Positions 652-60,700 of a stretch of 64,000 nucleotides of DNA are shown here, in pieces. The position numbers were made by a program, and so were the translations under genes. Under the pieces are notes generated by a model. The model did not search any database, was not told where the DNA came from, and saw only the letters and a program-made list of their open reading frames with translations. The first letter of the stretch is position 1, and every line of letters begins with the position of its first letter. This stretch comes from Telmatactis stephensoni (lineage: Eukaryota > Cnidaria > Anthozoa > Actiniaria > Isophelliidae), in NCBI GenBank assembly GCA_029948255.1, contig JALIZF010001405.1:1-64000 (forward strand), given 5' to 3'.

Positions 652-3600
652 GGATACCTTAGACAACAGTTGGCACCAATATTTAAAGAACTAGGCTGGA
701 AAGATGAAGGCTCACATCTACAAAAGTGAGTAGTTTTTACTGTGTTTGTTTGTGCATCTGTCTATTGTTGTTTGTTTCTTTGTTTCTTTCTACTCTAATT
801 TTTTTCTTTAAAGCCTGGCATTCTATATGCTGCTCCTGTGATGTCCCCTACCTAATTCAATTAAGTTTTGGCAAAAGAGGGTCATATTATGAAACATTTT
901 GGGACGGCTTTTATTCATTGGTTCAACAGGGTCTGTCAGAAATAGATATGAATCACATCCCTTCCAACTAAGCTGCTCCAACTGAAATTTATTAATAATA
1001 AATTATTAGGGACAGCGCATTACTGGCATGGTGTATGGAACTGGCCTTACTTGATTCTCTTTAAATAATTGTTTTTTATCACTTTTCAATAGATACTTGC
1101 GTGTGGCAGTGATCAGGAGCGCATCAAATTACGGCAATAAGAAAGCAACAAAAGAAGCACTCAAGATGTTTAATGACTGGAAGAATAAAAATAAGCCGTA
1201 TGTATCTGCTTTATTTAGAGTGCCTTAAATAATAAATGTGTAGTTCCAGAAAATATCCATACCCCACCGTGGAGGGAATTGGAAATTCCGGAGGGGAGGG
1301 AGGGGTCAGAAAAACAAAATTACAGAGTTTGTATGGAAGAAAAATGGAAGTTCCGGAGGGTAGGGGGTCCATTTACAAATTCCCTCCTTGGTGGGGGTAT
1401 GGATATTTTTTGGAACTACACAATATCATTTCTACTGTCAGTCTTCAGAATGATTTGTTACTACTTGTGCCAGACAATGGGCAGCTGGCAGGTCTTGCGT
1501 GACATTTTAAACTTTAATCCAACAAAAACAAAAATTATAAAAATAATATTTGAAAAGAGCTCACCAAAATTTGTAAAAGTTGAGATTTTGAAGTAGTTTG
1601 GATGAATAGCGCCAAAGTTATGGGCGGCTGAAGTTTGCTTTATTTGTATAGAAACGTTCATTGGTGGGCAAGCTGTTGCCCACACCGCCGAACGTTTCTA
1701 TAGAAAAAGAACTAACTTTGGCCACCAATAACTTTGGCGCCATTTATCGAAACTGCTTCAAGATCTAAACTTTTACTAATTTTGGTGTGTTCTTTTCAAT
1801 TATTATATTTTTCTTTTTGTTGGATTAAAGTTTAAAATGTCACGGTGATGTCACGCGACACCTGCCAGCCGCCCATTGACAGTGTTGGATTCTGCATTCT
1901 GCAACATTATGTGCATGTACATGCCGCCCAGCGATGAATTTAAGTGAAGGCCAGAATACATGAAAGGTTTTGCTCTCAGGGCATGCGCTAAGGTCATACT
2001 CCTGAAGCAAAGCTTCCTCATGTGTATCAAAGATGTAATCGATATAATTCCTCCTCAGGAGCAGAATTTTGACCCTGTGAAATGCTATGCGAAATTTGAA
2101 ATTAGGGACCATGATCTGGAAGCAAATCAAACAAAATTGAGCATGTTTGTTCCCTCTATGTACTAGTTTTGTAAAATAGCCCTGAGCATATGCCTCAGTA
2201 AGCTACTTGTAGCTTTAATGGGCCCTTTGCAGGACCAGTTCGTGTGATATGTCATTGAAATATCAACTCTGATGGCAAAATGGTTGACATGATGATAAAG
2301 AGCATCTTTAACTCAGTGTTTTTGCTGGGTTTGAGCCTTCTTTGACGTATTGGGGAAGAACTCAGACTCATGAAAAATGTTAATTTGAAGGTGCTTTTTC
2401 TGATGTTGCTGTCCATTTTATGATCAAAGCTGATATTTCTGTCTTGTGTCATGTAACCAAGTCCTGCAAAGGCCTATTATGGCATTTTGGATTTTCCAAG
2501 TTTTCTCAGGATTTCTTGTTGTTGGTGCATTTCCCATGAAGGGAACTCATCTTATGAGTGGTTGCTGTATGGCCTTCTTAATTATTAAGTTAAAGGTTTC
2601 TTGACATGTTTGAATGTGTCTGTAACCAACAACTTGTATTGTTGTATTGCTTCATTAGAGTTCCTCCAAACCTACGAGGTACCATCTACTCTATGGGCGT
2701 GCAAGAAGGTGGTGAAGAAAACTTTGATTTTGTCCTGGAACAATTTCGCAAAGCTACAGTAGCAGCTGAGAAAAAGAAGCTAATGTATGCATTGACCTCT
2801 GCCAAAGACCTAAGGATACTTAAAAGGTACTCAATAGTTTGTTTATCGTAAAACAAGTTGACTATGACCCTGCATTTACCAATTCTCTATTTGACCCCTT
2901 CAATAATGGTACGTTACCTTTTCTATGTACATTTATAATATAGTTCAATTATAAGACACGTTCTGAGTAGTATACAAATGGCGGTTCTACATCAGGTGCA
3001 GGAGGTGCAAGGTGGTGCAGCACAGTAGGTGCGTCACGCAACGGAAGAGGTGCGTCACACAACGGCGACCAGGGAGTCACGCGCCGGCGATCCGCTTACA
3101 GGACAGACGTTTTATAGACCGAGGGCTTCGGGTTTTCGCACAAATCAGTTGAACCCTTCAACCATTAATGTCATTAATCTACTGGATACAAGATGAACCC
3201 AATCAAATTTATGAAAAAGCTCTTTATTTCCACGTATGCAGTGGAAGTGTGTAAACACCTCCATGAACTCGATATTAAACACTGCTGTGGTTGTCAAGTC
3301 AAAAATAGCAAAGTCGAATGCTTGATGCTAACCGAAGATGAAACCATCGAACTTTACTTCGATGAAGCCCTACGAAAGGTGAACGTGGTTAAAGTGATCG
3401 AGCGAGTAATGGATAACATGAAACCATTTGCAATAACAATCGAAACAGAGGCCGAACTTTACAGCTGGACGGAAAGAAACCCAGCATTATCGTCAGACAT
3501 GTACCAAGCAATCAAAGATACAGTTAAAGTGATCCGAATGTATTGAGAAGGGACAAAATAATACACTAAAAGGATGTAAAATCGACGAACGAAAAGGCCT

Positions 3601-6600
3601 TCATGACAAGACGCTTGGATTAATGTACACAATGAAAAAGCTTTGAATAAACAAATGAAGCAGAACTGGTCACGAATTTGCATAAGTTCTAGACACAAAA
3701 CTTTTCACAAAACATTTATACTTTACAGTTCTTTTTTATCCCGGTGCAACCGCCTCATTAAAACTTTTTCATAGATAGGATTTTTAGGGGGAAAAAGTAT
3801 AGTCATTAAACAAAACTTCTGTGAGTTCAACGTGTTTTTATTAACAGAATTCAGTATCTAAACAAAACTTTTCAGCTAAGACATTTCTTAACCTTCATGT
3901 CTTTCAACTCGATTCTTGACCTTCCTCATGATCATCATCCACGAGTTTCAATTTCTTGTTCTTCACGGACTGTTGGTGTACAGCGTTACAGTCTCGACAA
4001 CGACAGAATTTGACTTTCGTGGTCTGAGCATCTACTGGAAAGATGTAAGTGCAAACATCGCACTCGATGTATTGATTGTCTCGACAGTAATATGCCTCAC
4101 GCCACAAACATCTTGGACATTCAACCACAGGAATAGAGTAAAACTTTACAAAGTCACGGCAGACGTGGCACTCTCTGGGCTCATCTTCCGATTCCGAAAT
4201 TTCCGGTTCGGAACTCTCCTCTGACTCTAAGCTTCCACTAACACTCTCGCCGTCCGACTCTGAACTTTCTCTTTCAGAGATTTCGTCACTAGTTTCACTG
4301 TCTGTCTCGTCCTCTTCTGGTTGCCTAGCAACCAGATCCGCTAGCAACTTCTTATTACGGATCAGTTTCTTGTCAACACCGATCTCCGATAATCCTTGAG
4401 TGAACGTTTTCAACCCACGAGGCACTTTAACATCTAGATTCAAAGGTAGCATGGCATACTCGATGAGCTCTGCCATGCTGGTGACAGGAATTCTTCGCTC
4501 ATGATACATCATCTCACCATGGGAATTCCAGTATAAAATTCTTTTTGAAGCCGTCAAAGTATGGAGAAAAGCTAGAGCTTTATCTTCTGGGATACTCTGG
4601 GAGAGATCCTGTAGAACTTGGTCAATATCTTCCTTGTCCCACAAGTCCTGTTCTGAGTGAATACTTCCGTCATGAGAATGCTCTGAATCGTATTCAGTGT
4701 CAGTAGAATCACTACGAGCTCTCTTCATGTTGCTTCCTCGATGATCAATGTTTTAATGAGCTTCTTCTTTATACACAGGAATATTTATAACAAAAACAGG
4801 CTCAAAGCCGACATGAGGGGTGACATGACATCGGATACAAAACCATCGCCCCGTTGAGCCAAAATTTGTTTCTTGGTTTTAAAAGGGACGGATGGGTTGG
4901 CTAACTCACGTATGTCGTCCACATGCTCTCTAAGTCTTTCTTTTTGTGCGTCCTTTATGGGGACCAGACCTTTTGACAAATTCATGCAAACCTCACAAAT
5001 GGCATGAACCTGTTCCGGACTAGCGGTGACCAGTAAAACCTTTCTTTGGTTAGGTGAACAATTGGTTAAATGGCACAAATAGCCAAAATTTTCTCTTAGC
5101 AAATGACTCATGTTGTCTGCACAGCCGATTGCATCAAATGAAAGGACAACAAAAAAACATTCCTCTTTATCCCTTTTTCCATTGTCAACTAAAGGCAGTT
5201 GGAATTCTATTATAATTTGAAGGATGTAATCTACACTAGAATTTGGCTACTAGAATCTACACTAGCTAGACTACTAGAATCTACACCAGCTAGAATACTA
5301 GAATCTACACTAGACTACTAGAATCTACACTAGCTAGACTACTAGAATCTACTAGACTACTAGAATCTACACTAGAATCTAGCTATAGAATACTAGAATC
5401 TACACTAGCTGGAATACTAGAATCTACCTAGAATCTAGTATCTAGTAGAATCTAGAATCTAACTAGAATCTAGTAGAATCTACACTAGACTATATTTGAA
5501 ATCTAGAAGATATTAGAATCTAGTATCTAGTAGAATCTACACTAGATAGGATGTTAAATCCATTCTATTCAGATCTAGCTAAAATACTAGAATCTAATCT
5601 AATCTAATCTAATGTAGAATCTAAACTAGTATAAATCTAATCTAATCTAATCTAATCTAATGTAGAATCTAATCTAATCTAATCTAATCTAATGTAGAAT
5701 CTAATCTAATCTAATCTAATCTAGAATCTAATTGAATCTAAACTAGTATAGATCTAATCTAATCTAATCTAATGTAGAATCTAATCTAATCTAATGTAGA
5801 ATCTAATCTAATCTAATCTAATCTAGAATCTAATTGAATCTAAACTAGTATAGATCTAATCTAATCTAATTAGAATCTAATAGATCTGATCTAATGTAGA
5901 AAATAACAATCCATATAGACCATAAATAACACATACTTCTAAAATTGGTTTCATTCAGTACAAGACGCGGAATGGTGCGGATGTGTCCTATATGCGGCAA
6001 GCCGCAACAAAATTTACACACTCATTTGAGTCGAACTCATAAGTTGGACAATTCACAGCGACAGTATTGGCTAGGTCAAGAAAAATGCACAAAAGGGGGT
6101 CAGCGGTTTACTCCCTATCCCCAGGCGAAGCCTGTGGAAACCAAATGTGACCGGTTTCAATTACTGCATCCCTTCACAGCCTTAGTGTCTGGAATGACCG
6201 GCTCTGGAAAGACGGTCTGGGTTCAAAACCTACTGGAACATGCCAACCAAGTCATCCAACCTCCACCTCAACGTATTGTATGGAGTTACTCTCAATGGCA
6301 ACCGGCCTACGACCGGATGCTCAAAACGGTCACTGGGATCCAGTTTGTCAAAGGGATACCCCATGACCTGAATGAGGATTGGTATTTTGACCCCGAGATC
6401 AACAATCTGATGGTCATCGATGATCAAATGACCGAGACCTCCAACGACAAACGTATCTTGAATTTATTTACCAAGGGATCCCATCACCGAAATCTCAGTG
6501 TCGTTTTCCTCTTGCAAAATGTCTATTTCCAAGGTGAAATCATGCGTACCTTGAGTCTCAATGCAGCCTACCTCGTCCTGTTTAAAAATCCCAGAGACAA

Positions 6601-9600
6601 ACTACAAATGATGACGTTGGGAAAACAAATGTACCCAGGAAAAACAGACCAGTTTCTTCAAAAGTACGAGGCCGCTGTTCAGCGGCCTTACGGCTACCTG
6701 TTCGTCGATCTCAAACCCAACACCCCAGAGGGGTGTCGACTGCTTACCAACGTTCTTCCTAATGATGCTCACCCATCGCAGACTAGAGGTCAGACAGATG
6801 CCGTAAAGACCATCGCTAACTTTTTTGAGCGTCAGGGGTACTTACAGTCACCCCAACTGAAAGCAATGCAGGAACTAGAAGAACAGATGGACGCCATTTT
6901 GAAAGACCCCACCCTACCTTCCGAGGTGAAAATCAAAGAATATGGTCCACTGTTTAATCGTTACCTTGCTCTACAACAACAACTCTCCAATACCGGTCCA
7001 ACGATACCGAGACAGGAACCCATTTCAACCGTATCAACATTGGTCGACCAGAGTCAGCCCCCAGCTAACGTGACGACTCCGAAAAACGTGTCTCCTACAA
7101 GTATGACCAGTGACAGTGATGTTGGCATGGCAACACCTAAAACACCCTCATTCCTAGAACGCCTGACATCCAAAGTCAGAACACCTTTTAAATCTAGTGT
7201 TCCACAGGGTAGAGAGGAGATACCGTCGACTCCATTAAAAGTAGACCAACCCTCTACTTCCACTCCCATCACTCTGTCGAGTGTAGAGTTTCCACCCACA
7301 CCCCCATCCAGTAAAGAAAAACCCCAAGCTGATCCCAGGTGGATACGTTATCAAGACGAACATAAGTATAGAGGACAGGTGTTCCAACCTCCGAGACGCT
7401 CACAACGAATAAGAGCCATGATTCAGTCCATACCCGGTTGGGAAAAACTTTAAGTAGTATTTAACTCATGTGTTAATTGTAACTAAAAAAGAAAGTAAAT
7501 AAAATCATATTCAAACATTTACTGGTGTCTTGTTCTTTACGATAGCCAATAGTTTTGCAAAGTAAACTGTAGCTAGGATGAAGACAAAAATAAAAAAATA
7601 AAAAGGAGAACACACGTTTTTCTTTAAAACGTTTTTATTGTATCATAACATATCAATGTACAAATTCATACTAGTTCGAAGGACAACAAAAAGGTTGGCA
7701 TGTATATTTTTCAGGAAATTCTAATTTTTTTACATCAAAGGATTCCCAGGCTGGTAATTCTGGATGATGCCCATATTTCATAATAAAAAGTCGATCGCCT
7801 TGCTCACAACTTTTTTGGTGTCCAAGTGCAGCCCTTTTAGCTAGTTCGGGTAGGTACAGAGTCATATTTATTTCTCCCTGTTCTATTAGTTCATGAATCC
7901 GACGGACTTCTTCTTGTAGAGACTCTGGTGGGGGTGGGTGGTTGTTGACCAGTCGATCAAAACATTTCAGACATATTTGACTGTTGTGCCATCCACACCA
8001 GTCGCAGTTGTAGTATCCATACGAACAGTAATCACCTACACTTCGATCTATACATTGTGGGTTCTGAGGACACTCCTCCAACCAATCTGCTTTGTCTTGT
8101 ACACCATGACAATAAATGGGAGCACACCCGAAAGATATGTTTTCGTCGACTTCGTCTTTTCCGTCCCAAAAACATTTGGCCATCCAGTCAAAAAACTGTG
8201 GACTACACAAATGAGATAAAATGTCTGATATGTCTGGTGACTTTCGATAATTTCTTTGTTGAAGAATCCACTCGACGCGACGTCGTATCTGATAAGCGAC
8301 TTGATGAATGATTGGGTTTTCTGTGTGCTCTTCGTTTGCTTGTAACAATACGTCAAAATATAGGTATTCTGGGACTGGAGATTCTCCTTTTTTCCAACAA
8401 CGCTGTTCTCCATGTAAATCTCCTAAAATAGGAATTGTACTGACTGCAATGGCCCACGCTGTGGTGTTCTTATCTGAGGACATAGTTGTTCTTGGACTAG
8501 TCTCATGTTCTTATCCCATGACATTTATAGGTATGATGGAATCAGTGGTTTCTCAAAATAGAACCCTATACCCAAAATAGACTCCTTCCGGAAAATACCC
8601 CGGGGTAATCCTATCAAGGGGGAGGGGTCGTACCTCATCATACCTCAGAAAGGGGTAGCCCTACCGGGCTAGTAAGGGGTTTTCGTTCGTCGATTTTACA
8701 TCCTTTTAGATTATTATTTTGTCCCTTCTCAATACATTCGGATCACTTTAACTGTATCTTTGATTGCTTGGTACATGTCTGACGATAATGCTGGGTTTCT
8801 TTCCGTCTAGCTGTAATTAAACGCGTTAGTGTTTTTGACTTGTTTAATATCGAGTTGTTTGCACACTTCCACTGCATACGTGGAAATAAAGAGCTTTTTC
8901 ATAAATTTGATTGGGTTCATCTTGTATCCAACAGTAGATTAATGACATTAATGGTTGAAGAGTTCAACTGATTTGTGCGAAAACCCGAAGCCCTCGGTCT
9001 ATAAAACGTCTGTCCTGTAAGCGGATCGCCGGCGCGTGACTCCCTGGTCGCCGTTGTGTGACGCACCTCTTCCGTTGCGTGACGCACCTACTGTGCTGCA
9101 CCACCTTGCACCTCCTGCACCTGATGTAGAACCGCCATTTGTATACTACTGTTCTGATTGGCTGAGAGACCACCAAAATCTATGCTCTATTTCACCGGTA
9201 AAGACATGGTTTTCTGACGAATGATTATACCAGAAAGCCTATTCACAAATTTTACCTTAGTAAGAAACCCAAACTTAAGAATAAACTAGAAAAGTCTTTC
9301 CATAATTCCAGTTATCGTTTAAATTTACAAACTAGTGAAATAGAGAACTGATCTCGTGTGGTTAACAGTTTTCAAAGATTTTAGATTGCAGTGGAAAGAA
9401 GCTAGTGGGCAATCACTGTTATAGATCACTCTATTTCGAACTGATTGAGAGAAGGCCAAAAAAATGGCCCAAGTGAATTTTCTTGTTATTTATACACAAC
9501 AGGCTCGTAACATGGTATATGGGATCAGGGATCAAGCTCCAAATTATGGCCAGGATCAGGGATCAGAGGCCAGGGCTCAAGGATCAAATGGGTGGGATCG

Positions 9601-18319: not shown

Positions 18320-21300
18320 TTATACGTACCTTGTAGAAATGTCCAGTAACGTATTGTGGTTATCAGTGGATAACAGATGGGAGCGTTTTCCATTTCCGTA
18401 GACAAATCTCTTTTCCATCCCATCTTGGTTTTCCGTGGCAGCATGGTTAGATCGTTTTCCATTTCCGTAGACAAATCTCTTTTCCATTCCATCTTCCGTG
18501 GCAGCATGGTGAGATCGTTTTCCATTTCCATAGACAAATCTCTTTTCGATTTCATCTTGGTTTTCCGTGGCAGCATGGTTGGATCGTTTTCCATTTCCGT
18601 AGACAAATCTCTTTTCCATTCCATCTTGGTTTTCCGTGGCAGCATGGTTGGATCGTTTTCCATTTCCGTAGACAAATCTCTTTTCCATTCCATCTTGGTT
18701 TTCCGTGGCAGCATGGTGAGATCGTTTCCCATTTCCGTAGACAAATCGCTTTTCGATTTCATCGTGGTTTTCCGTGGCAGCGTGGTTGGATCGTTTTCCA
18801 TTTCCGTAGACAAATCTCTTTTCCATTCCATCTTGGTTTTCCGTGGCAGCATGGTGAGATCGTTTCCCATTTCCGTAGACAAATCGCTTTTCGATTTCAT
18901 CGTGGTTTTCCGTGGCAGCGTGGTGAGATCGTTTTCCATTTCCGTAGACAAATCTCTTTTCCATTTCATCTTGGTTTTCCGTTGCAGCATGGCGAGATCG
19001 TTTTCCATTTCCGTAGACAAATCTCTTTTCCATTCCATCTTGGTTTTCCGTGGCAGCATGGCGAGATCGTTTTCCATTTCCGTAGACAAATCTCTTTTCC
19101 ATTCCATCTTGGTTTTCCGTGGCAGCATGGCGAGATCGTTTTCCATTTCCGTAGACAAATCTCTTTTCCATTCCATCTTGGTTTTCCGTGGCAGCATGGT
19201 AAGATCGTTTTCCATTTCCGTAGACAAATCTCTTTTCCATTCCATCTTGGTTTTCCGTGGCAACTTGGTGGGAGCGTTTTCCATTTCCGTAGACAAATCT
19301 CTTTTCCATTTCATCTTGGTTTTCCGTGGCAGGATGATAAGATCGTTTTCCATTTCCGTAGACAAATCTCTTTTCCATTTCATCTTGGTTTTCCGTGGCA
19401 GGATGATAAGATCGTTTTCCATTTCCGTAGACAAATTTCTTTTCCATTTCATCTTGGTTTTCCGTGGCAATTTGGTGAGATCGTTTCCCATTTCCGTAGA
19501 CAAATCTCTTTTCCAGATCATCGTCGTCTTCAGTAGCAGGGAAGGGCGATCGTTTTCCATTTCCGTACACAAATCTTTTTACAAGATCGTCTGCAACCGT
19601 TTCATGGTTTTCTGTGGCAGCATGGCGGGATCGTTTTCCATTTCCATAAACAAACCTCTTTTCTAGATCATTTGTTATCCATTCTTGAACTTTCTTTGCA
19701 GTACTGGGCGACCGTTTCCCCTTTAGTTCATATACAAGTCTTTTTACAAGATCGTTTTCCGTGGTCATTTCATGGTTTTCCGTGGAAGCATGGCGGGATC
19801 GCTTACCATTTCCATAAACAAATCTCTTTTGTATTTCATGTTCATCAAAGGGGTTTTCTTCATAGTTAACGTCATTCTGAAAATAACAAGTAAAACTCTT
19901 TTTTCAGACACACCAACGAAACATTACTCCAGGGGTATGTGAAATTTATCATACCGCGTATTCCTAGGGCCTGTTTTTCCATACATATGTATATATCGAG
20001 TCCAGATGGAAAAACGTACAGACGTACGAGAGCGCACGTACGTACTCAGTCTTATCCTGGGTGCCAGAGATTTGGCTCCCAGATAGTGATTAATAACGCA
20101 ACGTGACGCCAATAACGAACCGTACGTGGTCATCAACTGAAACTTGTGTGACCGACTCTAGGGGTGGGGAGAGGGGAGGGGAGGGGAATGGAAGGAAGTA
20201 TCCAGTCCTCCACCATTAGAGCCCATTACGCAGGCTACGTATATCGAATAAACTAAGACAAAAACATGGATTCTAGAAATTGAAAATTGCGCGCACTTCA
20301 AGAATCACCAGTAAAGCTAGTGGTAATTTTAGAGAGAATTAAGAAAATTGAGGCTGTTTTATCATAAGCGATTGTTTCCTGGACTGCAGTCCATTAAGGG
20401 CCGACGGTATACTTTATTTTCGGGTAGTAACGTTTACATGGAGATCGCGATGAGAATGCATTTATACGTTAATTAGCCTGCGTGACAGGGCTGAAAAATG
20501 CATTGCGCATGCTCGGAGGTTTTAAATAAAATCAAGAGACCATAATACTAAGAGAGCGAAACTCAGCATTGATGTCTGTGCGATGTTCGCGGCGACTAAG
20601 CCTATTTTTAGTAACTTCGCCATCGCGCGCGCAAGGCCCTCAACCACTAGAATTTGATTTTTGACGTGCGCGCGGACGGGACTGTTTGGTTTCGGCCCCT
20701 CCTTGGTTTCGGCTTTGAATTCTATTGTTTAAGAACCTTGCGCGCGCGATGGCGAAGTTACTAAAAACAGCCTTAGCCGCCACGAACATCGCACAGACAT
20801 CAATACTGAGTTTCGCTCTCTTAGTATTATGGTCTCTTGATAAAAACTATTGGAGGTTTAGTAAATCTTGAAAGTTGATGTTGTCCGTGAGAAGTTAATG
20901 GTTTTTTTCCTAAAACAATGCTTTAGTTGTTCTCTTTCCCTGGTGAAACAATACACGAGAAATTCGCATAATACACGACAGTTGAATCGACGGTACTTTT
21001 ATTTGTAAACTCGAACGCGTCCACGAATTCCCGCCGAATTTTCGAGCATGCGCAATACGTTTTTCGCTCGTGTCAGCCTGCGTAGGAAGCGTTTCTTTGA
21101 GAAAATGGGGTTTAAAGGGGATTGGGTTTCCTGTGTTACGAAAAGCAGGGTTTGGATACACAGGAAACCCAATCTCCCTTTCACATAAAAAACGTTTGCT
21201 ACGCAGGCTATTTATACGTTTACGTGAATCTCAGTCTTTTCGGTTCGCAACAACATGAAAATCCGGGCGCCTCGAACCTGCAGCCCCTGCGATACGTGTC

Positions 21301-23470
21301 CAGTTCTCTAAGAGGTTCCTCTGAAAGAATGATATATAAAATGGTCCTGTCCACCTCTTTGTTCGGATTGTAAAACGTGTGACGTTCGATCTTAGCCTCG
21401 TAACGCCTACGTGATGAGTTCGAAGTGAGTGGGAGAAAGCGTGATTGGTTTTACAGCATCACGCAGTAATCCTGCGCCGTGTCATAACCGAACTGGACTT
21501 TCAAATCAATCGTCTTTTCATAACAAAATAAAATGAAATAATTTGACCAAGAAGTTAATCTAATTTGACTTTTTATATTCACTGTCCTGATTAAAAACAT
21601 ACAAACAAGGGAGTGGTCTGGTGACGTCACGCTGTAGTCCTGCGTCGTCTCAAAACTACACTTTCAAATCGATTGCATTTTACATAACAAACAAATAAAA
21701 TGAACGATCAAGAAGTGAATCACCAATATTTCTCTTTGATTTTCATCTTTGGCAAACAAATTTTTATGCCCCTTTTTCTCTAACCTATATACCTTACCTA
21801 CTCTACTCACCCTACTACCCTTCACCCGACAGCAAATATAAATTGTCGAAGTCAAAATTCAATTAACCGGCCTGCAACCCCGGGTGGCCAGCATTTCGAC
21901 ATTTGAGACATATCATGTTCATTGATTTTGGCAGGACGCCGCGCGCTTTCATAATCTATTAAAGTATATTTACATTAAACTCAGTAACGAATTCTTAAGA
22001 ATGTGTGTAGGCGTATAGAAAGCTAGTCAGCTAGGAAAGAGCGCATGTTTAACTGAAGAGTTAAAAAAACCTAAGGAATACAAAGATTCGTATATAATGT
22101 AATTTTTAGGCAGTTACAATTTCTTTTGTTTGCTTGTTTCTTTTTTTTTTTTTTCCCATTTTTGTATTTGATGTACATTAATTAAGAAAATAGTACTATT
22201 AATTTAAATAATTAAGTTTAATGAGGTCACTTCAGAAAACATGTTTAGTTATTTTAACTTATCCTAAGCTTAATTCACTTTTGGCGCCAAAAGAAGACCT
22301 ATTACATACAAGCATTGAGTCATTGGTGTTATATAACATGAGGTCAACCAGTCAATTGCAAACAGAGAGCGGGAAAGCGCTGGAGTATGTTCCTAATTAA
22401 TCGTCGTTTGATATACACTGATACGCCTAAATGATTTCGCTAAGGGCATTGAGCATCCCCGCCGTGATAAATTCAATTCATTTTCTACGGTTCAAAGATG
22501 AAAAAGTTTTGAATTTTTGGGCGGTTTTTTGAAATATGCATTTGTGACCTCAAATAAAGATAATGAACGCGATATTTATATAAATTGATATTATTAAAGT
22601 CATATAATTTTCTAAATAAATTGTCATGGGGAAATTCGCTTGTTGCATTAAAAATTGAAAATTAGAAAAAATATACGCAGAAATATGATTTTGATCGGCA
22701 TACTCAGATATGTTCTTATAAATGGGTCTGATCTGTATGACATCAAATTTCTACCGTTATCAAATTTCATACACCGAACATTTCCCGCTCTTTTATAATT
22801 TCAATTAAGATCATTCATAGAATTAAAATCAATCTATAAAAACATTCAATTGCTTTGATTTTGAGAAAGGAAAATAGTTCGTTAGAGAATTCAACACAAG
22901 CAAACAGTAATCTCAATTTGTTTTAAAATGCCTCCAATCGCTTTGTCCGTTGTAAAGGAGACTGCCAATCGCGACGCTTACAAACAACAGACAAGCAAAC
23001 AACACAGACCCCTCGAGCTGCACTGAAGGAAAACAAAGAATACGACAGATAAGTGTTCCAATCCAAGTGATTTCTCGTCTTAACCGACCAGAGAATTCTA
23101 CTCTGTCTACTGAAAGCATTCTTTCCTCTATTAGCAACTGAATTCTAATGAGAATTTAATTAAACAAATTTCGGCTCAAAAATTAACAAATATCATATCC
23201 CTACACCAAATAAAGTTCAAGGACTACGGATCTAGAACTCGATTTTAAATGTATTTTTGCTTACGTTGATGTTAGGGCTTCTCTCCACAACACTGGTCCG
23301 CCACTCCTCCGGAATATTAAATGATTTATAAACTGTTGAGAGAAAGCAAGTAAAAAAAACTTAAGAAAAGTTTCTCGGAGTGAATTTCATGAAGCAAACT
23401 TACTTGGTTTAGCTGAAGAGCTGCAGAGAAAGAAAAAGAACAACAGTAGAGACAAACTCGTTGATTCCAT
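18320..23470 (-). CDS. Amidated neuropeptide precursor with ~20 copies of FVYGN-Gly-Lys-Arg
   Basis: Three exons in phase: 23404-23470, 23265-23332 and 18320-19876, predicting 563 residues. Exon 1 encodes a signal peptide (MESTSLSLLLFFFFLCSSSA, cleavage likely before KP) and ends phase 1 at GTAAGT. Exon 2 (23 codons) ends at GTAAGC. Exon 3 starts after TTATTTTCAG. It holds 20 copies of (K)RFVYGNGKRS, mostly in a 23-residue (69-bp) repeat whose spacer is S-x-HAATENQDGME. Dibasic cleavage and Gly amidation would release FVYGN-amide. A variant LVYELKGKR and a KKFVYGNG copy occur near the start of the array. Cnidarian neuropeptide precursors commonly have this design and act in the secretory pathway of neurons. 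The FVYGN-amide sequence is not one I recognise. A GTACGT donor just before the TAA could add an alternative C-terminus. Confidence 0.9.
18375..19545. repeat. 69-bp tandem repeat within the neuropeptide exon
   Basis: About 17 near-identical units encode spacer plus peptide. The unit is a multiple of three without stops, so long open frames also appear on the other strand and in a second minus-strand frame. These are by-products of the repeat. Confidence 0.95.
20532..20840. mobile_element. Long-arm foldback MITE with TAAAA duplication
   Basis: A 309-bp element. TCAAGAGACCATAATACTAA and a ~95-bp arm with GCGCGCGCAAGG at its inner end are mirrored on the right. TAAAA lies outside both ends (20527-20531 and 20841-20845). 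Confidence 0.85.
20850..21074 (-). mobile_element. MITE family C, copy 1 (reverse orientation)
   Basis: Shares GAAAATTCGGCGGGAATTCG, GTGGACGCGTTCG, AAATAAAAGTACCGTCGATT and CAGGGAAAGAGAACAACTAA (in reverse) with 25497-25775 and 63765-64000. Confidence 0.8.
21075..21210. mobile_element. Foldback with AGCCTGCGTAG ends
   Basis: Arms AGCCTGCGTAGGAAGCGTTT and AAACGTTTGCTACGCAGGCT enclose an inner palindrome (GATTGGGTTTCCTGTG ... CACAGGAAACCCAATC). The terminus matches the 49352-50576 element. Confidence 0.75.
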
Positions 23471-23516: not shown

Positions 23517-23523
23517 TTTTATA
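23517..23523 (-). promoter_or_regulatory. TATA box of the neuropeptide gene
   Basis: TATAAAA on the minus strand (CTTATAAAAGC context), about 47 bp upstream of the ATG at 23470, a normal distance for a short 5' UTR. Confidence 0.6.
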
Positions 23524-49351: not shown

Positions 49352-50576
49352 TAGCCTGCGTAGCGGCCCTGGGGAGGGGAAGGGAGAGGGAAAAGGGGAA
49401 GGAGGGGAGGGGGAGGGGGACTGGGGAGGAGGGGAAAGAGAGGGAGGGCCTGCAACGAAGGCCCTAGTTTTTACGTTATTTTACGTCCAGCAAACGGACG
49501 CTAAATTCCTATTGGTCGAGGGTGATAAGGCGAAATCTCATTGGCTGAAATCTAATCCGTGACGAAAGATGCAATGCAGTCTTTGATATTCTCTATCAAA
49601 ACAAATAACAAAAACTTCGTGAACGACCTCGCGTTCCAAGGAATTCAATATTTCCAGACGAAGGAACTGGTGTCTCAAGCACATTCTTCACTCATCGCAG
49701 AAAGCACTGGCTGCGATCATTTTTACTCGCTGAGAAATTTTGAACAATAGATTTTATTCTCAACGAGTACTCGCTGGCTCGCTGCGAATAATTTCTGGAG
49801 AATAGCCTTAAAAATGCTGTTTGCTACTGTCTTCCACAAACTAACATTTTTGATTATCCTGAAACTCTCTTCGTCGAACCTTAACTACCACATTTCCACA
49901 TGGATAAACGATTAAAACTTTGATAGCACAACCTTGAGAATACACCTTGAGAATTATCTACATCGTCAATGTTCAAATTCAAGTTAACTTGATCGCTGTT
50001 GACTTCTGGATTTTTCATGGATGAAGGAAATATAGACTTCCTCCCACAGGGTTTGCAAACCACTTTTGACGAATCTTTACGATCTTCTAAAACTATTCCA
50101 ATGTCAAGGAGAGAGTTCGCAATCACTCCGTTGTAGCCTTGTCTTTCCGTAAATTTGAAAAGATTAATGTCTAGGACTTGAGGGAACCATACTTAACTCT
50201 TAAACTCACATTACATATTCGGCACACTTCGTTCACGTTATTCTCAATTGATTTTCTACCTCGATTATTATTTTTCTTCGCGGTAAAATCCTCATTCAAG
50301 CTTTCCAATGTAGACAAACATGGGCAGTATTATGATATTTTGACAAGAAACGGAAGTCATGCACTTTTTGATTCATCAAATGTGATTGGTTAATTTTGAC
50401 AGATCTAGTTTGACAACAAGCAGCGTTATGAATTTTTAATTAGGGGGCGTTTGGTAAAAACTAGGGCCTTCGTTGCAGGCCCTCCCTCTCTTTCCCCTCC
50501 TCCCCAGTCCCCCTCCCCCTCCCCTCCTTCCCCTTTTCCCTCTCCCTTCCCCTCCCCAGGGCCGCTACGCAGGCTA
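49352..50576. mobile_element. hAT-like non-autonomous foldback element, 1,225 bp
   Basis: Arms of about 120 bp (49352-49473 and 50455-50576) are reverse complements without a visible mismatch, beginning TAGCCTGCGTAGCGGCCC and carrying a G-rich GGGGAGGGGAAGGGAGAGGG tract. TAAGGCTG lies directly outside both ends (49344-49351 and 50577-50584): an 8-bp duplication as in hAT transposons. The 980-bp interior has no transposase; its short frames (for example 49881-50126, minus) have no family match. Confidence 0.85.
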
Positions 50577-54000: not shown

Positions 54001-57000
54001 ATTCTTTCATTCTTTCTTCCCTTACTTCATTTAGTCAGTTAGTCGGTTGGTCAGTCAGTCAGTCAGTCAGACATTTGGTCAGTCAGTATGTCAGTGACAG
54101 TCTGTCGGTCAGTCGGTCAGTTGATTAGTCACAGTCAGTCAGTCATTTGGTCAGTTAATCTATCAGTCAGTTGGTGATCAGTCAGTCAGTCACAGTCAGT
54201 CCTTTGGTCAGTCTTTCTGTCTGTCAGTGGGTTGGTCTGTCAGTCTGTCCATGTAGAAACCTGTCTAATGATCATTCTTAGAGTTGTTCAATTGGTTATT
54301 CACTTATTCATTTTCTGTTTGTTTATAGTGAGAATAGAGAATTAAGAGAACATTTATATAAAGCATATATCACCAGAGCATCTGATGGTGAAACTGATAA
54401 CTCACATCTTATAGAAGAAATAAGAGAGCTCAGGAAAGAGAAATCAGCTCTTCTTGGTTTCAAAGACCATGCAAGCTTATCACTTGAATCCAAAATGGCT
54501 GGAAAGCCATCAGAAGTGTGGAGACTCATCCATGAGTTAAAGGATAAGAGTAAACAGGCAGCAGTTCAAGAAATTGAGAATTTGAAGGTAGGAGATAATG
54601 ATGGGTTCAATCATATAGATGACTGCTATATTCTGACAGCTTGTCATGGTTTTAGTCTTTTGCAGCATGGTATGGCTTTAGTGATGAAATCCAACTGTGG
54701 GATATCCCATATTGGGCTGAAAAGCAACGTCAACACCTTTTCAAGTACAGTTTAAATTTCTTTCAAGATTTATATAATTCTCATGATCATTCGAGATTAT
54801 ATTTTTATTTCATGGTCAACATTTGTATCTGTGCCCATGATGGGTGTTGTCAATTATATAATAATTTATTCTTCTTTTTATCTATGATCAAATGATTCTA
54901 GTTCATTAAATATTTGATTTTTGCTTCAAACAGTTTTAATGATGAGCTTCTTAGACCTTACTTCCCTTTACCAAGGTATGATGATGGAACCAGTTTTGTT
55001 TCATTTTGAATCCATTTCAATAACTCTGAGTTATTTTATATGTTTAATGTGTAGTTCCAGAAAATATCCATACCCCCATCATGGAGGGAATTGGTAAATA
55101 GACCCCTTTCCTCTGGAACTTCCATTTTTCTTCCATACAAACTGTAATTTTGTTCTTTCTCTGACCCCCCTCCCTTCCAGAATTTCCAATTCCCTCCATG
55201 GCGGGGGTATGGATATTTTCTGGAACTACACAATGAATGGGATGTGTGGTGGTAACTATGAAAAATAATTTCTATACTTTTATGTCATATAGAGTTCTTG
55301 AGGGCTTATTTAAATTCACCAGAGAATTATTTGGTATTATAATCAAGGTATGCAAGATACAGCAATTTGCAAGGAATATGATTGATTTAATAACCATAAG
55401 GCAATCTTTTTTAGCAAGCAGATAGTGAAGTAGATGTTTGGCATAAAGATGTTCGGTTTTTTAAGATCTTCAATGAAACAGGTGGGTGATAATTCATATC
55501 TGCATGAGTAGGAGGATATCATGGGTGCATAGTCCAAAATAATGTATTTAAAATTATAACAAATAATACAGAAACTTGCTCAATAAAGACCAATACTTAA
55601 TAATGACATTGGAAGATGTCGAAACGTTGTACAACATTTGCGTTTGTCTTTAAATTTAATTTCAAAGTCGAGCCTTATCAAATACAGAAACCATGCAAAT
55701 AATTATTTCATTAGGCAAGCCTGTACAACCAAAAAATATTATTCACCTTCTCTGCAGTGCTTGGTTTGGGTCGTAAGTCCCTAAAGATACAAATGGTACC
55801 CATTTGTTTATTATTTTCATTGGAATAGAATGTGTTCTGAAAAATTCCATGGGTCTGAAAGTCTCTCTTTTTGTTCAAGAGAGAAAAAACGTCCTGGAGT
55901 CTCAAATTATTGTAACAAACTAAGGAAGTCAGTGACAAATCATCTCAGGCTTGCAAACAAGTGCTTGGAGTCTTGGAAAATCTCCCTAATTGACCTTCAA
56001 CATCCTTTATATGACTGTTAAGACTTAAAAGAATGATCATTCTATGGTTATATTAGCCTGCAAAGCCTAGAGGAGGAAGATGGAGGGAGGGAGAAAGAGA
56101 GGGAGGAGAGGGGGTCTTCCTATCCCTGTCTATCTTCCTCCCAAGGGCCTGACTAGGCAGACTATGACTATGGTGTGTAAGAAACTATCATAATTTTTTT
56201 CATTGTGCCATAACCATACTGTGCTGCTTTTGTCATAGTCATATTAACTTTACTCTTGTTTATTTCATTACTTTACAGGAGAACATTTGGGTTCTTTCTT
56301 TCTTGATCCTTACTCTCGTCCTGCTGAGAAAAGAGGTGGAGCCTGGATGGACGAATGCACAGGTGCAACTTCTTAAGGGTTTAATAATAATAATAATAAA
56401 TTATGATGATGATGATGATGATAATGGTCTTAATTATAAGATTCATCAAACATGAAATAACTGTACAATATATACATATTTCTGACAGATTGTTTTTTGA
56501 ATTTCGCTTTTGAGCTTTAGCAAAGCGTATGTCTCAGAGGGGCATACTTTTTTCTACAGTTATTTCTTTTTGTTATTTGCAAGTTATACTGATGTTCCAT
56601 CCATGTTTTATATCAGGTAAAAGTAAAATGTTAAACAGAAAACCTGTGGCCTACTTGGTTTGTAACCAGTCTCCACCAAGTACCACTGACAACACACCAT
56701 CATTGATGTCTTTCCGTGAAGTCGAAACTCTCTTTCATGAGGTATTAATTCAAAAAGTTCAAAGGAGCTTAAACTCGATGGCATGAGGACAGTAAGAAAT
56801 GCCTGACCTACCATTCTAGTATGGGCTACTTTACTGATTTATTGGATCAGTATGGGTGTGCTTGTGTAATTCGACCCTAATTGTTTGTATCTTCTGTTTT
56901 AGTTTGGGCATGGACTTCAACATATGCTTACAACTGTTCAATATTCAGATGCTGCTGGAATCAGAAATGTTGAGTGGGATGCGGTAAATCACTTGCTAAC

Positions 57001-57746: not shown

Positions 57747-60700
57747 TCATACTGCTGTCACCTTTTTGTCTTGTGAAAAGACCCTTGTCAGCAAAAAAGG
57801 CTTCTTTCGTCGTAAGACTTTTGCAATGAAGATAAAAAGAGTTAGAAGTAAGATGGGAATGCCAACTCCAAGAAGAATTTGCCAACCAGCAACGGATAAA
57901 CCAAAGACTGATGCTGGTAGCAGGAAAAATCCAAAGATAATGTAAGCAGCTGAAAACCATCGATATTTGGCTGTGGTGTTTCCAAGGAACTTGGCAAACT
58001 TGATTGGTACTCGTCTTAAGGGTGGGATTGGATACCATAGTACAATTCCAGACACGTTGAAAAATAAATGGCATAAAGCAATTTGCAGTGCCTTGTGGAA
58101 AGAGTTCCCATGGCTGGCCATAGCGGCGAGGATACCTGTAGCGGTCGTTCCAATATTGGCGCCCAAGGTTAGAGGAAACGCTCTTTCAATGGTGACCACG
58201 TCGAGTCCAGTCAGCGGTGTGAGAACTGATGTAAAAATGGAACTGGATTGCATTAGAACTGTCATGGCAGTTCCAACAGCCATAGCAAAGTATCCTGTTA
58301 AATGGTGAAATGGTTTAGGGAAATCTGAATTGACTGTACGTCGAATAATCACAGAGACTTGCCCTTTCATCACTGAATGCAGTAATTTGACAATACACAC
58401 AAGACAGGTGCAAAGCATTGCTAGAGCTATGACCAGAATTATAACTCCAACAGAAGAATCAGATAAACCGGTTTCAGAAAACAGATAGTTGCATTCACGC
58501 GCTTCTTGTACAGTTACATTAGCCGGCCGAGTTACGTTGACCAAACCGATAGACGTATTCCAAACTTGTGTCAAATTTTCAATGACTGTTTTATTTTGCA
58601 AGCATTTCTTCAAAAGAGTACTCCGTTCAGAGTTAGCTTCTTTCAAGACGACGCTCTGCAAAACTTGTTCCGTGTCGAGTTGAACCACAAGGTTTGTCAA
58701 AGGGTTTGTTAGTTTCATAAGCAGGTCTTTATTCGCGCTTGGATCTGCAGTAATATTTATCACTTTGATGACTTGACTTGTGGCGTGATACAAGTAATGA
58801 AACACCACTTCTACTGGCAGAAAAACCAAGACAGACAGGCAGTTGAAGACATCGTGGACAACTGCACCAGCAAAGGCACGTCTGAATTGATTCCTGTCAC
58901 CTGCTTGGGCTAAAGAAACCATGGTGCTAGTCACTGATGTACCGATGTTGGCGCCCATCACGATAGGAATTGCAGGTTTGACTTCAATTACTGTGGAAAA
59001 GAAGAGAGTGGACGATTGGTTAAGAAGACGTAACCTGAGAAAACAGCCATTTTAGCACCAAGGGTGCGGGGAGCAAGTGTTTTCTCGGTTTAGACAAGAC
59101 ATAACTGTATAAACCCTTCTACTAAGGGGAGCCGCGGAAGGAAGTTCAAGGCAAATTTTGAAAGCGCATTAGTAAAATGTATGCGTTTTGCCGGAAGATC
59201 TACATTAAAAAAAACAGAACTTCTCTTTACTTTACTTCAAAACTCAGAAAAAAAGAAAAACAAACAAAATAAGAAAGAAAACGTGCTTAGTTTATTTAGC
59301 TTTCCCTTCGTTTGAAGACCTTTGAAGGCAAGGTCACCACAACATCTTTTCGCCAAGTACATCCTAAAATGTAGTAGGTAGTGTTGCATGCATTGGAACT
59401 TTGCCTTGGTCAATACAGACTTAGAAAAATACGCAGTCAAGGACTGCATGTGACTCAGGCAAAAAGGATTTTCAACGACACATTTTAGTATAGCAAAAGT
59501 TTTCGAAGAGGTCATGTGATCTGTCCTGGGAAAAGGCTATGTTAATGGGATAGCATAGCTGGAAATAAACAGTTTACAGTGGTTTTCATAAACCAGGGAA
59601 ATAATTACTAAATTGTAAAACAGTAGTATGTGTAATCCCATATAGTAAATGGTATTAATTGTTTCACGGGTTTTTAAAAACCAGTATATGGAAATAGTCC
59701 TTGATAATGAACTGTAAGCACACAAATACAACTATAAGCAATCTCCGAACATACTCCGGATGAGATCTTGACGACCGATCGCTACTCCGATCGCAGAGTC
59801 TGTTCCGATCGTATGCATTGGACAGTCTGAGGTACATTTTCTTGATCAAAAAGCAACAATATTGTTTAAATTTCATGTCAGTCGTCACTTAGTGTCTCTT
59901 TTATCTTATACATGAATATCGGCCGATATTCATGTTTATAAATCTTCCACTCGCTTCTGCTTGTCTGCAGCTTTTTCCCATCATTATTCAATCCCCACGA
60001 ATCCCTGTAAGACTTCTTACAGCTGTTGTTAATAAAATGTAGTCCTTATCTAAGGCTGATGAGAGGCAATAAAAAATAAATACACCTAGAATTGACTAAA
60101 CTGAAACACTATTTTGTTTTTTAACAGTGCAGTTTTTCTCGTACCCTGGGCTCCAGGGGTTTATTATTCGCTTTCTTTTATAGAGAGTTCTTCTCTTGTA
60201 GGCAAGTAAATAAACGTCGGAAGGAGACGATATAAAACCTCTGGAACCCAGGGTATTGAAGAATGAAGAATTCTTACAGCTGCTGTAAACAAATTGGAGT
60301 GCTTACCTAAGGCTGATGAGAGGCAAATTATCAAATAAATCAGCCTAAGAATTGACTCAAAAAAGCATTATTTTGTATTTATCAAACGTTTTTCTATGTC
60401 GCCTTGAGTTTACGTTTTACGTTAGGAACGCCTGCTACAAGTGGAGGTGGTTACGGACACTCAAGCCCGATAGCATAGTGACGAGAGGCCCCATAAGGCC
60501 TTTCGTCACAAAAATAGGATTTGATGCCGCAATCTGTGATTTTTTAAAAGCTGCTTTAAACTTGTACAGTGCACGACACAAAGTTGTCAAAATTGCAAAC
60601 AACAGTGTTCTATTTCTAATCGCTGCGAAAGAACAAGTGCCCTATTTTATGGCGCATTTCCTGAGGAGGCGGTATTTTTTTCAGGTTTACTTTTTTGTGA

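Follow-up and report, generated by a model that had tools for sequence, protein, structure and literature searches.

What does the repeat-bearing gene on the minus strand at positions 18320–23470 produce, in a 64,000-nucleotide stretch of Telmatactis stephensoni DNA (contig JALIZF010001405.1, positions 1 to 64,000; hereafter the window)? A first-pass annotation had proposed a neuropeptide gene predicting about 20 copies of an amidated FVYGN peptide. We put the probability at roughly 0.87 that the gene encodes a multi-copy neuropeptide preprohormone from which FVYGN-amide would be made, with cleavage, amidation, neuronal expression and a receptor all predicted. This reading draws on a hydrophobic leader, dibasic pairs flanking each peptide unit, a Gly amide donor, acidic spacers, peptide codons that vary only silently and a similarly built relative in Nematostella. 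The precursor architecture is a known one; the peptide family appears to be new.

Gene structure and predicted precursor

Three minus-strand exons, with splice sites called from the sequence alone, give a frame that is continuous through both introns and codes for 563 residues in total, from the ATG at 23470 to the end of the stop codon at 18320. Both introns have GT–AG ends. The coordinates, strand, exon phases and TATA box of the first-pass annotation were all right when the sequence was re-read. The features are as follows:

23517–23523, minus strand: candidate TATA box TATAAAA, 53 bases upstream of the ATG
23404–23470, minus strand: exon 1, coding part, 67 nucleotides, with the start codon and hydrophobic leader MESTSLSLLLFFFFLCSSSAKP
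23333–23403, minus strand: intron 1, 71 nucleotides, GTAAGT...CAG
23265–23332, minus strand: exon 2, 68 nucleotides, encoding the short linker YKSFNIPEEWRTSVVERSPNIN
19877–23264, minus strand: intron 2, 3388 nucleotides, GTAAGC...CAG
18320–19876, minus strand: exon 3, encoding 20 FVYGNGKR, 1 LVYELKGKR, acidic spacers and a C-terminal tail, with the stop codon
18384–19580, minus strand: 69-base tandem repeat array encoding the homogeneous units, 17.4 copies with 91% matches

The proposed signal peptide, as judged by hydropathy only, agrees with an 11-residue peak of 2.9 at residues 6–16, and values stay at or below 0.45 from residue 31 onward. In-silico dibasic cutting of the 563-residue protein yielded 20 FVYGNG and one LVYELKG, as well as spacers such as SRHAATENQDGME. 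The copy number of 20 was thereby confirmed, with KR preceding 19 of the copies and KK the remaining one, and with the single LVYELKGKR in addition. The spacers had been called acidic, and the 21 predicted cleavage fragments beginning with S do carry a mean charge of −3.1. Cysteine is absent from the precursor after the leader. The window holds 20 matches to a degenerate FVYGNGKR pattern, whereas 100 dinucleotide shuffles averaged 0.00. The 600 bases downstream of the stop codon contain two ATTAAA and no AATAAA. For the predicted FVYGN-amide, the computed m/z is 598.298, versus 599.282 for a peptide that is not amidated or is deamidated.

Codon variation among units and a second copy of the array

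The 69-base unit is divisible by three, so several frames are open over the array (427 residues in another minus-strand frame, 430 and 361 residues on the plus strand), and openness alone therefore proves little. Codon variation was compared among the units. In the eight codons of FVYGNGKR, pairwise comparison of the 20 copies gave 226 silent differences and no replacement, the LVYELKG unit being left out of the count. The 15 spacer codons were compared over the 16 units that are 23 residues long, and here silent differences numbered 211 and replacement differences 475, a count that leaves out the five of 21 units that have another length or sequence, the LVYELKG unit among them; peptide codons within the 16 equal-length units gave 69 silent and 0 replacement differences. 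Expressed per site, silent and replacement differences were 0.211 and 0 in the peptide, and 0.209 and 0.108 in the spacers. Seven distinct base changes were counted by eye in the peptide codons, all of them silent. With a silent share of sites of 0.235, the chance of seven out of seven being silent would be about 4e-5 if the changes were independent, a figure to be taken as a guide and not as a strict probability, since gene conversion can make copies alike.

Across the assembly (483.5 megabases, 1782 contigs), the FVYGNGKR pattern gave 40 matches, with the window and a second contig (C190) contributing 20 each, whereas the same pattern reversed as a control gave 0. Both flanks of the gene in the window have counterparts on contig C190 that total some 22 kilobases, at 98–99% identity except for one 600-base piece at 94%; insertions and deletions lie between the matching pieces. 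Because of these matching flanks, we read the C190 array as the other haplotype rather than as a recent duplicate from another locus; recent duplication of a large segment would be the less likely reading. The C190 gene has the same exons and no frame change, encodes a 563-residue protein and keeps 20 of 20 units. Its coding sequence differs from that of the window at five bases, too few to test selection; four of these are replacements, and all five fall outside the FVYGNG codons. The single KK before a unit in the window is KR in C190, and intron 2 is about 1 kilobase longer there (4392 nucleotides versus 3388).

Relatives, known precursors and literature

Searching the exon 3 frame against 5.8 billion proteins returned one match, a 400-residue protein of Nematostella vectensis (P0003; E value 2.7e-12), for which the NCBI name is cylicin-2. 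The searches with exon 3 and with P0003 scored 7997 and 7990 candidates, respectively, these being the ones that share most words, and among its 7990 P0003 matched itself only. Residues 1–223 of the window precursor had no match among 3540 candidates, in a search whose length limit put P0003 itself beyond reach. P0003 has a leader (hydropathy 3.07) and 18 FVYG units between dibasic sites, which end as FVYG-G-K[RK] (13 units), FVYG-R-KR (3), FVYGAGKR (1) and FVYGQYGGKR (1). By the usual rules, the predicted products would be FVYG-amide, FVY-amide or FVYG, FVYGA-amide and FVYGQYG-amide; computed [M+H]+ values are 484.255 for FVYG-amide, 555.293 for FVYGA-amide and 832.399 for FVYGQYG-amide.

The two precursors are alike in having a leader, many KR-FVYG units, acidic spacers and no cysteine after the leader. 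Where the leader ends, both also have AKP[IV][YF]K, a stretch with a shuffle p of 0.00065 when the alignment is anchored there. P0003 differs from the window precursor in its varied unit endings, in units that often stand back to back and in a longer C-terminal tail. Spacers and spacing differ between the two, whereas KR-FVYG, which holds the N-terminal part of the peptide, is kept. The FVYG family is probably conserved at the N-terminal end of the peptide and not private to one lineage. Judged from P0003 as the single relative, the gene would belong to an anthozoan, probably a hexacoral. The earlier suggestion of a lineage-specific signal could apply to no more than the final residue, N, and fails for the core KR-FVYG, which P0003 shares. 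More tentatively, and at slightly less than even odds, the FVYGx-amides may be an undescribed family common to the window's anthozoan and sea anemones, in which the N-terminal FVYG would be the message, the C-terminal residue would vary (G, A, N, QYG), dibasic cutting would occur on both sides and a receptor of its own would be conserved between both groups. Such a family would be unlike the cnidarian families, which are defined by their C-terminal end.

Two further candidates were rejected. Single pattern matches in two viral contigs had one copy each and no precursor, and no relatives were found in viral contigs or prokaryote genomes, a weak negative given that the patterns came from linker and spacer and not from FVYG and that the searched set may omit records close to the window. 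Adipokinetic hormone (PF06377) was matched by the first 223 residues at a whole-protein E value of 4.1e-5 (24.4 bits versus a cut-off of 22.9), but no stretch passed alone; the best one, residues 68–92, runs from the last two residues of FVYGNG through the spacer.

For cnidarian preprohormones, Koch and Grimmelikhuijzen (2020) ask for a signal peptide, three or more GKR, GRR or GR sites and, ahead of these sites, three or more peptides of high similarity. In the precursor frame there are 21 such sites and 20 identical FVYGNG, together with a signal peptide by hydropathy only. The name-giving C-terminal residues of the RFamide, GLWamide, RPamide, PRXamide, HIRamide and RWamide families are absent. 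The predicted products end in YGN-amide, plus one ELK-amide, in keeping with the first-pass annotation, which had found the ending unlike the RFamide, LWamide, RPamide and PRG types. According to the text of PMC7523074, the hexacoral GPRGamide, Antho-RFamide, GLWamide, RPamide, Q(S)ITRFamide and FHIRamide precursors share with that of the window a leader, many copies, a Gly amide donor and a basic site after the peptide, and known hexacoral neuropeptide precursors carry up to 50 copies; unlike FVYGN, these families have no YGN ending there and take their names from a C-terminal end that their members have in common. Antho-RNamide and FLRNamide resemble FVYGN-amide in their Phe start and Asn-amide end, but lack the FVYG core and, in the same text, have precursors that carry the peptide once, immediately behind the signal sequence.

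Full-text literature matches to FVYGN, YGNamide and variants were unrelated by title. Among the matches listed for FVYG-type strings, none was on cnidarian peptides by title; FVYG with cnidaria returned a mussel paper only, and cylicin with Nematostella returned none. Neither FVY nor VYG occurs in the main texts of PMC11087051, PMC9545775, PMC6756747 and PMC9525235, nor do YGN, GNG or GNamide occur in the text of PMC7523074, whose peptide tables in sections 6 and 8 were covered as captions only. The main text of PMC11087051, from 2024, reports 33 Nematostella precursors, 15 of them new, with the list in its supplement. P0003 may be among those 33; the method there would be expected to catch such a protein. 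The claim that the signal is undescribed held up in the literature searched, which covered main texts, and stays provisional. FVYGN-amide is likely undescribed, and the Nematostella form may be listed already.

Proposed processing, alternatives and wider context

For processing of the precursor, the leader would direct the 563-residue protein into the secretory pathway. Going by motif rules, a prohormone convertase would cleave after the dibasic pairs flanking each unit, a carboxypeptidase would remove KR, and peptidylglycine alpha-monooxygenase would convert the last Gly to the amide, giving up to 20 FVYGN-amide and one LVYELK-amide per precursor. Convertase, carboxypeptidase and amidating enzyme make up the peptide biosynthesis route in the text of PMC9545775, and mass spectrometry of other Nematostella precursors points to cleavage at KR-x and x-KR and to amidation from Gly (main text of PMC11087051). 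The acidic spacers would be by-products that balance the basic sites. Our best guess is that release would be from neurons or neurosecretory cells, given that PMC11087051 places most Nematostella precursors in neuroglandular cells only. The target receptor, by class, would most likely be a G protein-coupled receptor.

The earlier description of the locus as a very strong neuropeptide gene is upheld in silico by the silent-only peptide codons, the dibasic sites and the Nematostella relative. Several points weigh on the other side. The gene is known here from sequence, and its transcript, peptide and receptor are predictions. Gene conversion or unequal crossing-over may partly keep the repeats alike, which would weaken the codon test, and the spacers too are under some constraint or homogenization, far less than the peptide. 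Unanchored local alignment of the N-terminal part to P0003, outside the repeats, was weak and not significant (p 0.05–0.06). Coral relatives did not appear in any of three protein searches, but two of these scored only the candidates with most words in common and the third could not reach proteins as long as P0003, so this absence is not proof; coral coverage had no control. Most hexacoral neuropeptides start with pyroglutamate or Pro in the texts of PMC7523074 and PMC9545775, and the Phe of FVYGN is unprotected. Basic sites before the peptide are described as less usual in cnidarians in the texts of PMC6756747 and PMC9545775, and the known hexacoral families often have none there; such sites are present before every FVYGN unit.

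The gene could instead encode a secreted multi-copy precursor of a gland, mucus, cnidocyte or epithelial peptide, serving defense, venom or settlement, and no neuropeptide. We consider this unlikely. The producing cell is not readable from sequence, and KR-flanked repeats are also found in other secreted peptide precursors; the product, however, would be a pentapeptide with a Gly amide donor and no charged side chain, from a precursor without cysteine after the leader, and the design fits the many-copy hexacoral neuropeptide precursors of PMC7523074. Much less probable still is a repetitive structural or matrix protein whose dibasic sites stay uncut. The regular 23-residue repeat would suit such a protein, and the name cylicin-2 belongs to a structural one, but FVYGNGKR is invariant over 20 copies while the spacers vary, KR-FVYG is kept in Nematostella despite differing spacers and spacing, and neither precursor has a cysteine after its leader. 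That a satellite repeat is open here by chance, with no gene at all, is rejected as hardly credible in spite of the several open frames of the 69-base repeat, because variation respects the codons of the precursor frame, the pattern matches number 20 versus 0.00 in shuffled sequence, in-phase splice sites join the frame to a leader exon, it is open in both the window and the intact C190 copy, and a relative of the same design occurs in another genus.

Elsewhere in the window, looking for further GKR-rich frames or FVYG gave two low-complexity stretches rich in GKR and a single isolated RFVY, none of them precursor-like. The GKR-rich stretch is present as two copies in opposite orientation (49364–49501 and 50439–50564), alike over most of their length. 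An insertion of 6185 bases at 2966–9150 has terminal inverted repeats of about 310 bases beginning AGTAGTATAC and a target-site copy of six bases (GTTCTG); the corresponding part of contig C190 lacks the insertion. It carries frames on both strands, one of them weakly like the poxvirus A32 packaging ATPase (E value 1.5e-4; 21.7 bits versus a Pfam cut-off of 22.8). The six-base target copies and AG ends are reminiscent of Polinton/Maverick-like elements, but the insertion is short. An exon of an M3 family oligopeptidase lies at 54282–54755 (Pfam E value 2.9e-18), with cytosolic oligopeptidase A as the closest solved chain, and a sodium-dependent phosphate transporter at 57747–59051 (TIGR01013, E value 2e-106).

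If the gene is the neuropeptide precursor proposed here, it would add a peptide family with the N-terminus as its conserved end, and the misleading database name cylicin-2 would be corrected. A many-copy precursor would possibly have been missed by peptide catalogues. FVYG-amide and FVYGN-amide would provide defined synthetic ligands for orphan receptors of Nematostella and corals.

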